NCBI GenBank assembly: GCA_029067895.1
Contig: JAIEDQ010000071.1
Coordinates: forward strand, 1-35,461
Reading direction: 5' to 3'
Origin: Oscillospiraceae bacterium
GTDB taxonomy: Bacteria; Bacillota; Clostridia; Oscillospirales; Ruminococcaceae
DNA length: 35,461 nucleotides
How positions within the stretch are numbered: position 1 is the first letter of the stretch; the number at the start of each line of letters is the position of its first letter. The translations under genes were made by a program, and so were the position numbers. Shown here piece by piece: positions 1-7,085 of the stretch. The notes under the pieces were generated by a model. That model was not told where the DNA came from. It searched no databases and worked only from the letters and a program-made list of their open reading frames with translations.

Positions 1-91
1 GTGCAAGGAATTTGATGATTGTTTGGTGATAATATGCCATTATTTTGACAAAATATAATGTGCTTAAAAATAAATTTTATATGCACCAAAC

Positions 92-126
92 AAAAACTGC
101 GGCCTTAGTCTAATGCCGCAGTTTTT
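92..126 (-). terminator. Intrinsic terminator of the Panacea/membrane-protein pair
   Basis: A perfect 12-bp inverted repeat (AAAAACTGCGGC / GCCGCAGTTTTT) with an 11-nt loop lies just beyond the stop codon of the minus-strand membrane-protein gene. Read on the minus strand it is a GC stem ending in a T run; being symmetrical it could also work on the plus strand. Confidence 0.8.
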
Positions 127-139
127 CTGATTAATAATG

Positions 140-1075
140 TTATTGTTCTCCAAAAATTTCAGAAATTGACTCCTCTGTACATTCATTTACGATTTCTTCA
201 GTGTAAGATGTTTCTTCTACAGTGTCCGTTACCTTGGTGTTTCTTTTCTCCACTAAGCCACAATACCACGAAATCATAGTAAACAGCATAAGCAAAATAA
301 AAATTATATTTGAAATAATAAGAGGAGCTTTTCTTGGCTCTTTGTTGACCAAGCGATCAATATAATAAAATAAACCAAACAGTACATTTACAGCAACAAG
401 GCCTATGACAAGTGCAACAATAATTATTCTATAAACACTTACGCCGGATATATTATTTAAAACAGACGTAGAAAAAGCAATCTCAGAAATAAATGCAATA
501 ACAACACCTGCAAAGATGCCGAGGATTGCAATATAATCTTTTTGTTGATTTGTTATTTGATTTTTTGTATTTTCAACATCATTTGTTAAGCTTTCTACGT
601 ATGGTTGAACGTCATTGAGTTTTGATTGAACATCATTAATCTGTGCTTTAAGTTCCAAAACATTTTCTTCACCAGAACTTTTATAGTTACAGGCTTCAGC
701 GTACTGTATTCTCGATATATCTAAGTTTACATGGTCACATAATTTCCGTATATTTTTACTGACATTTATTGGTTCATTATTTATGTCTTTATTTATTGAC
801 TGATAATTTTTTCTTAAATAGTCAAGATTTTGTCCAAGAACGTTTATATCACCAAGTGACGAATCTTGTTTTATTTGAGTAAGTACGGCAAAAATATCAG
901 AATAAAAATGGCGAAATCTTTCATCTGCATTTGAATTATGATAAAGCTCTTCAAGTCGACGATACATTTTTGAACGTTTTAAACGGTCTGCAAGTAGAGT
1001 TTGATCTTTTGCAAGGTCAAACAAAATACGTCGAAATTCTTCTCTTTTTTTATCCTCACTTGTAATGTCAGGCAT
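140..1075 (-). CDS. Coiled-coil membrane protein, possible toxin or effector paired with a Panacea antitoxin
   Basis: No family is recognised for this 311-residue protein. Residues 1-130 are soluble, charged and mostly helical. Residues about 136-180 look like a coiled coil (repeated DVQ/NDV heptad-like spacing). Three hydrophobic segments follow at about 181-203, 214-240 and 252-274, then an acidic tail rich in Glu and Thr. This suggests a long cytoplasmic N-terminal region on a membrane anchor. The gene starts 3 nt after the stop of the Panacea gene and its ribosome site (AGAGAGG) overlaps that stop, so the two are one operon, closed by the terminator at 92-126. Base composition is much more AT-rich than in the dcw genes, which fits element cargo. 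Panacea proteins are known antitoxins for varied toxins, some acting on membranes; calling this one the toxin is inference from position and topology. Confidence 0.6.
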   Translation of the reverse strand: MPDITSEDKKREEFRRILFDLAKDQTLLADRLKRSKMYRRLEELYHNSNADERFRHFYSDIFAVLTQIKQDSSLGDINVLGQNLDYLRKNYQSINKDINNEPINVSKNIRKLCDHVNLDISRIQYAEACNYKSSGEENVLELKAQINDVQSKLNDVQPYVESLTNDVENTKNQITNQQKDYIAILGIFAGVVIAFISEIAFSTSVLNNISGVSVYRIIIVALVIGLVAVNVLFGLFYYIDRLVNKEPRKAPLIISNIIFILLMLFTMISWYCGLVEKRNTKVTDTVEETSYTEEIVNECTEESISEIFGEQ

Positions 1076-1078
1076 ATT

Positions 1079-1504
1079 TTACCTCTCTGCTTTTATTAGT
1101 TCAATTGGTATTGTACAGCGATTGCCATTTCCATCTTTATATGTTTTATCCCAAGCTCCACCGCGTTTATGAGTTTCATTTACCATATCCCACGGATCCA
1201 ATGTTCTTTTGTTTTTAACGATATTATCAACTATTGCAGAGTCTTTGTCACTTAGGGGTGTGCCATATGAAAATGATGACGAAATAGGCATGGCACCAAA
1301 ACCGCAAAAATAGTAGTATACATTAGGAACAACAGGTCCAAACTGCCAAGCTTCAATGTCATCAAAAAACATAACTTCATTTCGGGTTTGCAGGCATTCT
1401 TTTTGTATATAATACAAAATCTTTTGAAGCTGCAAATTGCTGATAGGACAACCGTCGTTAACACACTTTGAAACAATATATTTAGATAAGTCAAGTGCTG
1501 TCAT
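1079..1504 (-). CDS. Panacea domain (DUF4065, SocA-like) protein, putative antitoxin
   Basis: The 141-residue product carries the Panacea/DUF4065 hallmarks: an N-terminal LQLQKILYYIQ helix (about residue 25), then DDIEAWQFGPVVPNVYYYF (about 50-70), matching the family pattern KLLYYaQ...f.d.IEAWryGPVVpeVY. The family includes the antitoxin SocA, phage proteins, and the promiscuous antitoxin domain PanA, which neutralises unrelated toxins encoded next door. The ORF track starts 10 codons upstream, but the ATG at 1504 has a good ribosome site (AAGGGAGG, 9 nt away) and begins MTALDLSKYI, the usual family N-terminus. It is followed after 3 nt by a membrane-protein gene, as in a two-gene toxin-antitoxin operon. 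The domain call is firm; the antitoxin role is inferred from family and context. Confidence 0.82.
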   Translation of the reverse strand: MTALDLSKYIVSKCVNDGCPISNLQLQKILYYIQKECLQTRNEVMFFDDIEAWQFGPVVPNVYYYFCGFGAMPISSSFSYGTPLSDKDSAIVDNIVKNKRTLDPWDMVNETHKRGGAWDKTYKDGNGNRCTIPIELIKAER

Positions 1505-1586
1505 GAATAACGACCTCCCTTCATAATAAAACATATCAGTGTATAATAATTTTATATTTATACTTTATGTTTTATTCTATATTATT

Positions 1587-1615
1587 ATAATACATCAAAT
1601 AATGTTAAAAATCAA
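1587..1615 (-). promoter_or_regulatory. Promoter of the Panacea operon
   Basis: On the minus strand TTGATT, 17 nt, TATTAT lies about 80 nt upstream of the ATG at 1504. An overlapping TATAAT is shifted by 3 nt. The whole 1535-1819 intergenic region is very AT-rich and otherwise holds only the divergent recombinase promoter. Confidence 0.5.
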
Positions 1616-1751
1616 TATTTTGTCATAAAATTTATTTTAATTGACGAATAATATAAAAAACATAATACAATTTTGGAGTTTTTATATAAAAATATATCGT
1701 TACGTACCGCTCCACAATGCTGCTCAAAAGATACATATTTTACTTTTCATC

Positions 1752-1780
1752 TTTACATTTTGATCCCTTAGTGATATAAT
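1752..1780 (+). promoter_or_regulatory. Sigma-A-type promoter of the recombinase gene
   Basis: TTTACA, 17 nt, TATAAT, 39 nt upstream of the recombinase ATG. This is a vegetative-type promoter. B. subtilis spoIVCA is instead transcribed by the mother-cell factor sigma-E, so the difference is of interest. Confidence 0.6.
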
Positions 1781-1801
1781 TGTTAATAGTATATATCACT
1801 A
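1769..1801 (+). promoter_or_regulatory. Palindromic operator candidate over the recombinase -10/start point
   Basis: A perfect 10-bp inverted repeat TAGTGATATA / TATATCACTA with a 13-nt spacer covers the -10 element and the expected transcription start. Further CCCTT / AAGGG complementarity flanks it. It could be a repressor site or a recombinase-binding site. Confidence 0.5.
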
Positions 1802-1819
1802 CGAAAGGGGATTTTAAAT

Positions 1820-3520
1820 ATGCCGAAAGATGACGCTCGCACAATAGCCATATACTCCCGCAAATCCAAATTCACAGGCAAAGGCGAAAGCATAGAAAAC
1901 CAGATCGAGCTGTGCAGACAATACATATCCTCGCACTACAGCCAAGAAGAAGCACTCGCAGCAGTCGTTTACGAGGACGAAGGCTTCTCAGGCGGGAATA
2001 CCGACAGACCGCAGTTCCAGCAAATGATGTCCGACGCAAGGGCGAAAAAAATCTCAGCAGTGGTATGCTACCGTCTTGACCGCGTAAGCAGAAATATCAG
2101 CGACTTTTCGGGACTTATTCAGGAGCTTGAACGGTTGGGCATTTCCTTTATCTCTATACGCGAGGACTTTGACACCTGCTCTCCCATGGGACGGGCAATG
2201 ATGTACATAGCTTCGGTTTTTTCACAACTTGAAAGGGAAACCATTGCCGAGCGCATACGTGACAATATGCATGAGCTTGCCAAAACTGGTCGCTGGCTCG
2301 GCGGCACAACTCCCACGGGGTACGCTTCGGAAAGCGTTTCTCATGTGACTGTGGACGGAAAATCCAAAAAAGCCTGCAAGCTTTCGCTTATCGAAAAGGA
2401 AGCGGATATTGTCAGGCTTATCTTTTCAAAATTTCTTGAAACAGGCTCTCTTACTCAAACCGACACATTCTTGCTTCAAAACCGCATTACCACCAAAAAC
2501 GGACGTGACTTCACCCGCTTTGCCATAAAAAATATTCTTACCAATCCCGTCTATATGATCGCGGACGAAGCTGCCTACAGATATCTTTCGGAAAGCGGCG
2601 CGGAGCTTTTCTCCGACAGAGCGGACTTTGACGGCATATGCGGGATAATGGCGTACAACCGTACCGAGCAGAAGCACGGCGAAGCTCACAAAATACGTCC
2701 CGAGGACGAATGGATAGTCGCCGTGGGAAAGCACCCCGGAATAATCAGCGGTTCGGACTGGATAAAGGCGCAGACTTACCTTGAACAAAACCGCTCCAAA
2801 AGCTTCCGCAAAACCCGCAGCAATACCGCTTTGCTGTCAGGTATACTTCTCTGCGGAAGCTGCGGGGACTATATGCGTCCCAAGCTTACCAAGCGCACAA
2901 ACAAGGACGGCGAGCTTGTCTACACATACCTCTGCAACACAAAGGAAAGAAGCCATTCCGAGCGCTGTGCAATTTCAAACATCAGCGGAAATCTTCTTGA
3001 CCGTATCGTCTGCACCGAAATCAAAAAGCTTTCCGAAGACGGTTCCGCTTTTGCAAAGTCTGTTGAAAAGGCAAAGAAAGATATTTTATCGGACAAAGGC
3101 GACTTTTCGGAGAATATTGAAGAACTGAAAAAAAGCTTTTCCGAAAACGAAAAAGCAATTGAAAATCTCACAAAAAGCTTGTCGGAGAATTCGGAAAGCT
3201 CCTCTGCGGTATACATTATAAAAGAAATTGAACGTCTGCACAAGAAAAACGACGGACTGAAAGTGCAGATAGACGAGCTTGAAAATATCAGAAAGCGGCA
3301 AATCATAAACGGCAGAGAGTTTGACATACTCAGGGATATGCTTTCAAGCTTTGCGGGCACGGTGGACATAATGTCCGCGGAACAGAAAAGAGCGGCGATA
3401 CGTGCCTGTGTGAGGAAGATAGTCTGGGACGGCGAAAACGTTCATATATATCTTTACGGCTCGGACGATGACGATACAAAGAATACTCTTGAAATTCCGC
3501 TGAGTGAGTATAGCAAATGA
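1820..3520 (+). CDS. spoIVCA: Large serine recombinase, SpoIVCA-like excisionase of a sigK-intervening (skin) element
   Basis: This 566-residue large serine recombinase would excise the element interrupting sigK. The N-terminal resolvase domain begins IAIYSRKS with the catalytic Ser inside YSRKS, followed by the conserved YRLDRVSR and SQLERETIAERI segments. A central recombinase domain (about 180-300) precedes a zinc ribbon near 340-395 (CGSCG ... C...C) and a C-terminal coiled coil (about 420-500). The family usually runs 450-600 residues. The start ATG has an AAAGGGG site. The last codons read YSK-stop, and that TGA lies inside the AATGAAATA sequence where the sigma-K frame resumes, so gene end and element end coincide. 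Serine recombinases of this class are also found on ICEs and phages; the skin assignment rests on the sigK junction, not on the protein itself. Confidence 0.85.
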   Translation: MPKDDARTIAIYSRKSKFTGKGESIENQIELCRQYISSHYSQEEALAAVVYEDEGFSGGNTDRPQFQQMMSDARAKKISAVVCYRLDRVSRNISDFSGLIQELERLGISFISIREDFDTCSPMGRAMMYIASVFSQLERETIAERIRDNMHELAKTGRWLGGTTPTGYASESVSHVTVDGKSKKACKLSLIEKEADIVRLIFSKFLETGSLTQTDTFLLQNRITTKNGRDFTRFAIKNILTNPVYMIADEAAYRYLSESGAELFSDRADFDGICGIMAYNRTEQKHGEAHKIRPEDEWIVAVGKHPGIISGSDWIKAQTYLEQNRSKSFRKTRSNTALLSGILLCGSCGDYMRPKLTKRTNKDGELVYTYLCNTKERSHSERCAISNISGNLLDRIVCTEIKKLSEDGSAFAKSVEKAKKDILSDKGDFSENIEELKKSFSENEKAIENLTKSLSENSESSSAVYIIKEIERLHKKNDGLKVQIDELENIRKRQIINGREFDILRDMLSSFAGTVDIMSAEQKRAAIRACVRKIVWDGENVHIYLYGSDDDDTKNTLEIPLSEYSK

Positions 3521-3947
3521 AATACTAATGCACTTCCGTTCTCTGAAAAAATCGGCGGGGGACATATACTTCGACGAACCGATCGACACCGATAAAGAGG
3601 GCAACCAGCTTACCCTGATAGACATTATTGCCGAGGACGACGGCATACTGGATAAGATCGACCTGAGCATAAAATCGGAGCAGCTTTACCGCTTTATAGG
3701 GGAATGCCTTGACGAGCGGGAGATCACCGTAATAAAACGCCGCTACGGACTTTACGGATGTATGCCGCAGACTCAGCGGGAGGTCGCGGACGCGCTGGGG
3801 ATATCCCGTTCCTACGTGTCGAGAATAGAGAAAAAGGCGTTGCAGACGCTTAAAAAGAAATACGACCGCACTTCGATCTTCAGTTCTTCGGGTTCGGCTG
3901 GTCAGACAGGTCAGGCAAAGGAGGGGGGAAAGAGTTCCGAAAAATAA
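3504..3947 (+). CDS. sigK: 3' half of sigK: C-terminal part of RNA polymerase sigma-K, interrupted
   Basis: Starting at NEILMHFRSLKK the frame matches the second half of the mother-cell sporulation factor sigma-K: DKEGNQLTLIDII in the linker/region 3, and a region 4.2 helix-turn-helix TQREVADALGISRSYVSRIEK. Whole sigma-K is about 230 residues; this piece holds the C-terminal ~140, with no region 2 for -10 recognition, so it cannot be a working sigma factor as it stands. The nominal GTG start lies inside the recombinase gene and is not a real start. The fragment corresponds to B. subtilis spoIIIC. SigE also has an IENEILM motif, but MHFRSLKK and DKEGN favour sigma-K. Excision of the upstream element would fuse it to a 5' half left of the window. 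The tail after the HTH (SSSGSAGQTGQ...) is low complexity. Confidence 0.85.
   Translation: MSIANEILMHFRSLKKSAGDIYFDEPIDTDKEGNQLTLIDIIAEDDGILDKIDLSIKSEQLYRFIGECLDEREITVIKRRYGLYGCMPQTQREVADALGISRSYVSRIEKKALQTLKKKYDRTSIFSSSGSAGQTGQAKEGGKSSEK
3510..3530 (+). other. Right attachment junction of the skin-like element within sigK
   Basis: The sequence AGCAAATGAAATACTAATGC joins the recombinase 3' end to sigK. In B. subtilis the excision crossover is a 5-bp AATGA inside the codons for Asn-Glu of the motif IENEILMH. The same AATGA is present here at the same protein position, immediately before ILMHF. The precise core cannot be fixed without the left junction, which is outside the window. Confidence 0.65.
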
Positions 3948-4712: not shown

Positions 4713-7085
4713 ATGTATAATCTGGAAAGCTTTACGAAAAAAGCGAATATTGTCATCAACAAGGCGTATATTCAGGCGGGACGGCTTGGACACATCTATA
4801 TGGGCAGCGAGCATCTTCTTCTGGCGCTTGTAAGCGAGCCCAACTGCACGGCTTCGGGTATTTTCAGAATGTGCGGCATAAGAGAGGAGACCGTCCTCGG
4901 CAGGATAACCGCTCTCGTCGGCAGGGGAGAGCCCTGCGCCGTAGACAGGGACGCGGCTACGCCCTCGGTGAAAAGGATAATCGAAAGAGCTTTTATTATC
5001 GCTTCGGAAAGCGGCGCGCGTCTGACGGGTACGGAGCATCTTCTGCTTGCCCTGCTTCGTGAGGAGCAGTGTACCGCGGTAAGCATTATCGAGGAGATAG
5101 GCGGAAATCTTTCGGGACTTTCCAGAGCCTGCTCCGCGACAACCGCAAACGATATTCCCGGTGGAATGACAAAAACGCCTACCCTTTTGAAGTACGGCAA
5201 AGACCTTACCAAAGCCGCCCGCGAGAAAAAGTTTGACCCGGTTTTCTGCCGCGAAAAGGAGATAGAGCGGGTCATACAGGTGCTTTCCCGCAGGACGAAA
5301 AACAATCCCTGCCTTGTGGGAGAAGCGGGCGTGGGAAAGACCGCCGTTGCCGAGGGTATTGCGGTCATGCTTGCGGAGGGACGTGTCCCCGAAGCGATAC
5401 GCGGGAAACAGCTTTTTTCGCTGAGCCTTACCTCAATGCTTGCGGGAGCGAAGTACCGCGGAGATTTTGAAGAGCGCATAAAGCAGTGTCTTGACGAGGT
5501 CGCCGCAAACGGCAGGATAATCCTTTTTATAGACGAGCTTCACACCGTCGTGGGAGCGGGCGCAGCCGAGGGTGCTATCGACGCGGCGAATATCCTGAAG
5601 CCTCAGCTTGCCCGCGGAGAATTGCAGATAATCGGCGCGACCACACTTGAAGAGTACCGAAGATTTATTGAAAAGGACAGCGCACTCGAACGCCGCTTTC
5701 AGCAGGTGCTTATAAAAGAGCCAACCGAGGAGGAAGCGTTAAGCATTATCGGCGGACTGAAACGCTGCTACGAGGATTTCCACGGGGTGACTATTACGGA
5801 CGGCGCGGTCAGGGCGGCGGTGTCAATGTCGGTTAGATATCTTCCCGACAGGTTTCTGCCCGACAAGGCTATCGACCTTATAGATGAAGCTTCCTCGCGG
5901 GCGAGAATGAAGTACGCCGAATCTCCGAGAACTCTCAGCGAGCTTGCGGAAAGTCTTAAAAGAATGCTTGAAAAGCAGACGGAAAGCTGCGCGGGACTGA
6001 ACTCCCAAGGCAGCAGTAAAGGCAAGCATGGGGATACAAGCTGGTACAGCGACAGTGAAGCCCCTGCCGTGGAGGTGACGGAGGAAAGCATTGCGGAGGT
6101 GGTCTCCCTTGCCACGGGCATACCTGTCACACGACTTACCGCCGACGAAAGCAAGCGTCTGCTGGAGCTGGAGGGCGAGCTGAAAAAGCGTGTTATCGGT
6201 CAGGACGAAGCTGTGGAAGCGGTTGCGGACGCTGTGCGCCGAAGCCGCGCGGGACTGAAAGACCCCTCACGTCCCATGGGCTGTTTCCTCTTTACGGGAC
6301 CGTCAGGAGCGGGCAAGACCGAGCTTTCAAAGGCGCTGGCGGAATGTCTTTTCGGCACGGAAAACGCCATGATACGTTTCGATATGTCCGAGTATATGGA
6401 GAAGCACAGCGTAAGCAAGCTGATAGGCGCGCCTCCGGGCTACATGGGCTGCGAGGACGGCGGGCAGCTTACCGAAAAGGTGCGGAAAAAGCCCTACAGC
6501 GTCATACTTTTCGACGAGATAGAAAAGGCTCACGGAGACGTGAGCAATATCCTGCTCCAGATAATGGAGGACGGCATCCTCACCGACAGCAAGGGCAGGC
6601 GGGTAAGCTTCCGCAGCACGGTGGTAATTCTTACCTCAAACGTGGGGGCGGAGCTGCTGGGAGACAAAAAATCCGTTGGCTTCTCACCTATAGACGCGGG
6701 GGACGAGGCTGTACGTTCGGACGTGCTTAAAGCCCTGCGGGAAAGATTTCGTCCCGAGCTTATCGGCAGGCTGGACGAGATAATCGTGTTCAAAAAGCTT
6801 GAAAAAGCCGAGCTTGGACAGATTGCAAGAAAGATGCTGACCGGTCTTTGCAGACGCGCGGAGGCTATGGAGATCGCCGTGGAATTCAGCGACGGAGCGA
6901 TAGACGCGCTGGTTTCCGACGGTCTTGACAGGACTGGCGCGCGAAAGCTGCGGAGAAAGATAACCTCCGAGGTGGAAAGTATGCTGTCGAAAAATATTCT
7001 GGACGGCACGGTCAAAAAGGGCGACAAGGCTGTGGTCATGGCTGAGAACGGCAAAATTTACCTGAAAGTCTCCCAAATGCAGTAG
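4713..7085 (+). CDS. clpC: ClpC-type AAA+ unfoldase, ATPase partner of ClpP
   Basis: This Hsp100 ATPase of 790 residues unfolds proteins and feeds them to the ClpP peptidase in the cytosol. Two Clp-N repeats fill about residues 1-145 ([20 protein letters not shown]). The first AAA+ module has Walker A GEAGVGKT (about 203) and Walker B ILFIDE (about 270); the second has GPSGAGKT (about 530) and VILFDE (about 600). A VGF tripeptide near 656 matches the ClpP-docking loop of ClpC proteins, which argues against ClpB. The middle region between the modules is short (about 60 residues), ends in a Ser/Gly-rich stretch and lacks the usual UVR-like motif; adaptors such as MecA or McsB bind there in Bacillus. 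The usual neighbours ctsR, mcsA and mcsB are absent. Start: ATG after an AAAGGGAAGG site. Confidence 0.85.

Follow-up and report, generated by a model that had tools for sequence, protein, structure and literature searches.

A skin-like element interrupting sigK in an Oscillospiraceae bacterium, and evidence that its integration may split the recombinase gene as well

The gene for a large serine recombinase runs directly into the C-terminal half of sigK in an Oscillospiraceae genome, and the initial annotation of this locus read the arrangement as a developmentally excised element like the skin element of Bacillus subtilis. Where is the missing half of sigK, can the two be rejoined, and what does integration do to the recombinase gene that ends at the same point? 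The window, i.e., the whole stretch of DNA that was analyzed, is the entire contig C201 (35461 bp).

The two halves of sigK

Positions 3519 to 3947 on the plus strand encode the sigK 3' part, from EILMHF to the stop, which matches model positions 109-226 of TIGR02846 with 137.6 bits. Its first codon is the one for E at 3519; the GTG at 3504 is only the mechanical start of the open reading frame, and genuine sigK sequence begins from the crossover core AAATG (3515-3519, plus strand). The recombinase gene (1820-3520, plus strand) overlaps this part. The bases TAT AGC AAA TGA close the recombinase, and the same stretch in the sigK frame gives AAT GAA ATA CTA ATG (N-E-I-L-M), so AAA TGA forms the end of one protein and AAT GAA the N-E of the other. 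The annotated junction, a recombinase gene ending where the C-terminal half of sigK begins, was thus found as described. The reported absence of a 5' half from the window was also confirmed, and is explained by the window being a complete contig whose left end falls within the element.

When the full assembly (2.68 Mb, 231 contigs, 89.5% complete) was searched with TIGR02846, the 5' part was located on contig C6 (4940-4593, minus strand, model positions 2-115), with the end that had been predicted for it and in an orientation that permits deletion. This part ends TGTATTGAAAATG, then CTATTGTACC, and AAATG is therefore common to attL and attR; the central dinucleotide of the core is probably AA (3516-3517). 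Joining the halves in silico gives an unbroken full SigK that reads CIEN-EILMHF across the junction. The rejoined protein is intact in both G000 and G002, the latter a sister species of the same genus. The right part of the element lies at 1-3517 of the window and the rest at C6:1-4592 (minus strand), with a gap of unknown size between the contigs. In the sister species, both halves are present on one contig (L046), 13.9 kb apart.

An intact sigK elsewhere would have refuted the initial interpretation. The same search found none in the assembly, within its completeness of 89.5%. The sole full-length TIGR02846 match scores as a SigE-like factor and adjoins another sigma gene; we take the two to be the sigE-sigG pair from their usual neighborhood, and their identity is otherwise unsupported. 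The dN/dS values of the two sigK halves against split and intact relatives are 0.03 and 0.008, the lower value being that of the 3' part against G002 and the intact G013. These ratios indicate strong purifying selection on each half. The locus meets the sequence criteria of a skin element, namely a split sigK, deletion orientation, an element-encoded serine recombinase, a frame restored in silico, and no other intact sigK. A skin-like element in a further clostridial lineage is hence supported to the extent that sequence allows, and the dependence of sporulation on its excision in this host is an inference.

The recombinase gene and its separated tail

The gene at 1820-3520 encodes a large serine recombinase of 566 aa with Resolvase, Recombinase, and Zn_ribbon_recom domains (Pfam) and a match to the PHROG 95 integrase. 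A candidate sigma-A-type promoter, TTTACA-17-TATAAT, can be read at 1752-1780 (plus strand). An inverted repeat with 10-bp arms (TAGTGATATA..TATATCACTA, 1769-1801) covers its -10 region and is a candidate operator. Both are conserved in G002. The repeat was also considered as a general trait of the family, and this was rejected, as only 11 of 59 upstream regions reached p<=0.05. At the other end of the gene, the TGA stop (3518-3520, plus strand) is made by the junction, which also supplies the stop in 57 of 74 distinct recombinases. The left arm of attP (3488-3517, plus strand) doubles as the coding sequence for the recombinase C terminus (PLSEYSK), and the arm is conserved in 71 distinct elements.

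When the excised circle is assembled in silico, the recombinase stop is lost (AAA TGA becomes AAA TGC TAT...) and the frame extends for 177 more codons, with SEYSK-CYCTISECK as the predicted peptide across the attP junction. This extension, generally about 180-200 codons long, lies at the opposite end of the integrated element from the recombinase (C6:4593-4060 in the present genome) and encodes two XRE-type helix-turn-helix (HTH_3-type) domains. The circle would carry a palindromic attP, ATAGCA-AA-TGCTAT; a long palindrome centered on AA is the form of attP in most elements. Among 74 distinct recombinases, 71 enter the core in the frame that matches the tail, and 68 are open right up to it. 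Between the conserved recombinase domain and the core lie 1 to 250 bases, a spacing that changes in steps of three. Eleven recombinase frames continue beyond the core and read sigK in a different frame; at these loci the sigK codons are mostly AAC GAR. On the other side, tails beside a sigK 5' half begin at the crossover in the matching frame at 34 of 35 loci (29 of 30 distinct), with further cases besides. In 14 of the 15 genomes for which both ends are available, the joined frame is open, and it measures 753-832 codons from stop to stop. Since the frames meet on both sides and the joined frame is open, integration appears to split two genes reciprocally, and attP, as far as in silico joining can tell, lies within the recombinase reading frame.

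The tails compared are under purifying selection (omega 0.08-0.19 overall), with weaker constraint in their first 30 or so codons (0.16-0.49, few sites). A fold search with a model of the tail (mean pLDDT 70.6) matched HTH folds of the Cro/CI type, in no case with E<=0.001. The tail is absent in L091, the L112 group, L149, L153, and L162, and G002 keeps only its first 18 codons; it is therefore dispensable for a persistent element. A few tails (L381, L388, L393) carry frameshifts or stops, and among the tails with a stop is that of Sporomusa ovata DSM 2662. When phages, plasmids, and 375 genomes of the order were screened with the tail, no uninterrupted recombinase-HTH gene turned up. A search for an intact natural attP (GATAGCRAATGCTAT) in 398 genomes of the family gave 6 matches, none beside a recombinase or sigK. 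The same pattern is too short to be specific in viral contigs, and across these searches no natural copy of an intact attP was identified.

The tail can be read in two ways. It follows the sigK 5' half immediately and on the same strand, and some tails contain TTG, GTG, or ATG codons able to start translation. It may be an independent gene behind the sigK promoter, transcribed with that half in the integrated state and encoding a mother-cell excision (directionality) factor, and the frame match with the recombinase would then be a by-product. A Cro/CI-like fold is compatible with such a factor, and no other directionality factor was recognised in the element. This reading leaves unexplained why the recombinase frame stays open to the core in 68 of 74 distinct elements. 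Moreover, the tail is read in a frame other than that of sigK; 17 of 29 tails have no ATG ahead of a conserved motif near their start, and 3 of 29 have no ATG, GTG, or TTG there. Given the 17 tails without an ATG, it is simpler to suppose that the tail is translated as part of a fusion. The same arrangement also occurs in an element outside sigK (L143). We thus regard an independent gene as unlikely, and production of the HTH part as a mother-cell excision factor from the sigK transcript is not excluded.

The explanation that we favor with good confidence is a skin-like element in which a single crossover splits both sigK and the recombinase gene, with short and long forms of the recombinase and control by the HTH tail. 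In one strand exchange, integration would remove the C-terminal half from sigK and the HTH tail from the recombinase, which usually gains its TGA stop from the AAT-GAA codons of the host. In the integrated state, the short form, a complete ordinary serine integrase, would be made from the sigma-A-type promoter. By analogy with CD1231 and CD1234 of Clostridioides difficile, it would excise the element in the sporulating mother cell once a directionality factor appears. As one cut splits both genes, an exact excision would repair the two together. The long form would exist only in the free circle. The Cro/CI-type HTH suggests, as an inference, that the tail binds DNA, most likely attP and/or the candidate operator in front of the recombinase gene. 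Such binding would limit expression or favor integration after transfer to a new cell, and integration would abolish the control by truncating the recombinase. Excision, its mother-cell timing, and what the tail does are all inferred, in the absence of expression or excision data.

Relatives, cargo, and the state of sigK

Relatives were collected by a recombinase-only search of named genomes, which gave 80 close relatives, and by a search of the family, which added 30 loci. About 105 of these 110 adjoin a part of sigK, though sigK was not used in finding them. They are spread across Oscillospirales and also occur in Lacrimispora, Sporomusa, and Holdemania; named hosts include Ruminococcus, Flavonifractor, Oscillibacter, Fournierella, Acutalibacter, Lacrimispora, Sporomusa ovata, [Clostridium] viride, and Holdemania. 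Among cultured carriers, Lacrimispora xylanisolvens DSM 3808 has the sigK split, and Acutalibacter sp. 1XD8-33 and Ructibacterium gallinarum DSM 107454 have elements with a tail. By similarity alone, homologues of the tail are found in 30 of 398 genomes of the family and also in other families of the order, and are 33-40% identical between lineages. Two more distant sets of recombinases were set aside. One, 51% identical, lies on plasmid pRUMAL01 of Ruminococcus albus 7 (L238, 373507-375377), with no sigK or HTH gene annotated alongside in the stretch examined. The others, 40% identical, are on IMG/VR contigs (L179-L204) with no sigK alongside.

Within the genus, the sister species G002 has a recombinase 97% identical in protein sequence to the present one, and G001 and G009 likewise carry a split sigK 5' half. 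An uninterrupted counterpart of sigK is present in 16 of 21 genus genomes searched, and genomes with and without the element are interspersed in a short sigK tree, which indicates that the element comes and goes. In Hominifimenecus (L143/L395), the same recombinase and tail lie near a tRNA gene instead of sigK and are split likewise; L376 is probably another such element outside sigK. The splitting therefore belongs to the element and not to sigK. Taken together, a widespread clostridial family of sigK elements, in which reciprocal splitting acts as a switch and the integrated and circular states encode short and HTH-tailed recombinases, respectively, is an extension that we hold to be somewhat better than an even bet. 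A minority class (L107, L145, L150, L160) has the recombinase beside an inverted sigK 5' half, and in L379 the tail appears to adjoin an inverted sigK 3' end.

The cargo of these elements varies. In the window, a 151-aa ORF with a SocA-like Panacea domain (1079-1534, minus strand; Pfam PF13274, E=1.2e-16) accompanies a 311-aa ORF (140-1075, minus strand), a predicted membrane/coiled-coil protein of unknown family with no Pfam match and marginal PADLOC matches only. The left part of the element, on C6 (L014), encodes a BnzB-like protein (PADLOC 4e-39) and a PDC-M09A-like protein at 3-2124 on the minus strand, and a WYL-type regulator at 2408-3418. These C6 genes are a candidate anti-phage island riding in sigK. 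The G002 element has the same recombinase end and wholly different cargo, a nucleotide-sugar/glycan gene cluster (L046, 3314-13983) read from ORF translations without a domain test. Thus, candidate defense genes in one case and a glycan cluster in the other ride at a developmental locus. The parts of the element examined contained no recognisable phage genes. Beyond sigK, a 790-aa ORF (4713-7085) reads as a ClpC-like ATPase from its sequence, again without a domain test, and the region that follows sigK shows 95% identity to its counterpart in G002, the sister with the split gene.

It could be argued that an ordinary genomic island simply killed sigK, leaving two dead halves in a host that no longer sporulates, as excision has not been seen and the host is known from its assembly only. 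In addition, the relatives include a record named Faecalibacterium prausnitzii APC923/61-1 (L137), a species regarded as asporogenous. Dead halves would not be expected to show dN/dS of 0.008-0.03 against both split and intact relatives or to rejoin frame-perfectly, and the genome retains sigE (taken by neighborhood), other sigma matches, and a BofA-like gene below the cut-off. We consider a dead sigK improbable. An assembly artefact, with unrelated contigs or a chimeric junction, can be raised only because the halves are on different contigs of a fragmented assembly, and is scarcely credible here and already refuted for the element family, since more than 70 distinct elements, cultured isolates included, share the architecture and several have both halves on one contig. 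The F. prausnitzii record (L137/L388) itself has a split sigK-like gene and a stop-bearing HTH tail; its sigK-like 3' part is only 37% identical, and its presence is odd for a species regarded as non-sporulating.

Among clostridia, skin elements have been regarded as exceptional (PMC5025042). Here, sigK is interrupted at the close relatives of a single recombinase across Oscillospirales and also in Lacrimispora, Sporomusa, and Holdemania; many of these hosts live in the gut, and programmed DNA excision during sporulation may therefore be common.

Comparison with known systems

The skin element of B. subtilis, with its recombinase SpoIVCA, likewise splits sigK, and there the serine recombinase excises the element in the mother cell to restore the gene. 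It is a 48-kb prophage-like element whose recombinase is under sigma-E/SpoIIID control (PMC5025042, PMC13141910), unlike the present element as far as phage genes are concerned. The skinCd element of C. difficile also splits sigK; its large serine recombinase gene lies immediately upstream of the sigK 3' part and has a sigma-A promoter with inverted repeats, as here. CD1231 is expressed constitutively, and excision needs the mother-cell factor CD1234 (PMC5025042), whereas no directionality factor has been identified in the present element. The cargo is unrelated, as far as seen. A reciprocal split of the recombinase and an HTH tail is undescribed there (PMC5025042); the ends of the C. difficile element were not compared. 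The gin (gerE, B. cereus, PMC5595907) and yin (yabG, PMC10747680) elements also interrupt sporulation genes, and some are not prophages; they use other target genes, and no reciprocal split is described in the portions of these reports that were available.

Outside sporulation, integration-dependent immunity in mycobacteriophages offers a parallel, as a junction truncates a phage protein and, in phage BPs, converts a Cys codon to TGA (PMC9262239). There, a repressor loses its degradation tag; here, a recombinase would lose its HTH tail. A literature search restricted to open-licence papers found no report of reciprocal splitting of a recombinase gene in bacteria.

Self-splitting (suicidal) integrase genes are said to be exclusive to archaea (PMC8371274). 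In the SSV-type integrases, attP lies inside the integrase gene, which is split on integration. These are tyrosine recombinases, and integration separates their catalytic part and inactivates the enzyme (PMC8371274). The present bacterial serine recombinase would retain all catalytic domains and lose the HTH tail only. Of the criteria for a suicidal integrase, attP within the frame is met in silico, and a tyrosine recombinase inactivated by integration is not; the enzyme works partly like a suicidal integrase and is not a member of that class. If the reciprocal split is real, it would represent a bacterial serine recombinase whose own integration remodels its gene, previously described only for archaeal tyrosine integrases. 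It also suggests, in a form open to testing, how a single integrase could act differently before and after integration, which bears on serine-integrase tools. The element may thus be a bacterial serine-recombinase counterpart of the archaeal self-splitting integrases, in which the truncated enzyme stays complete.
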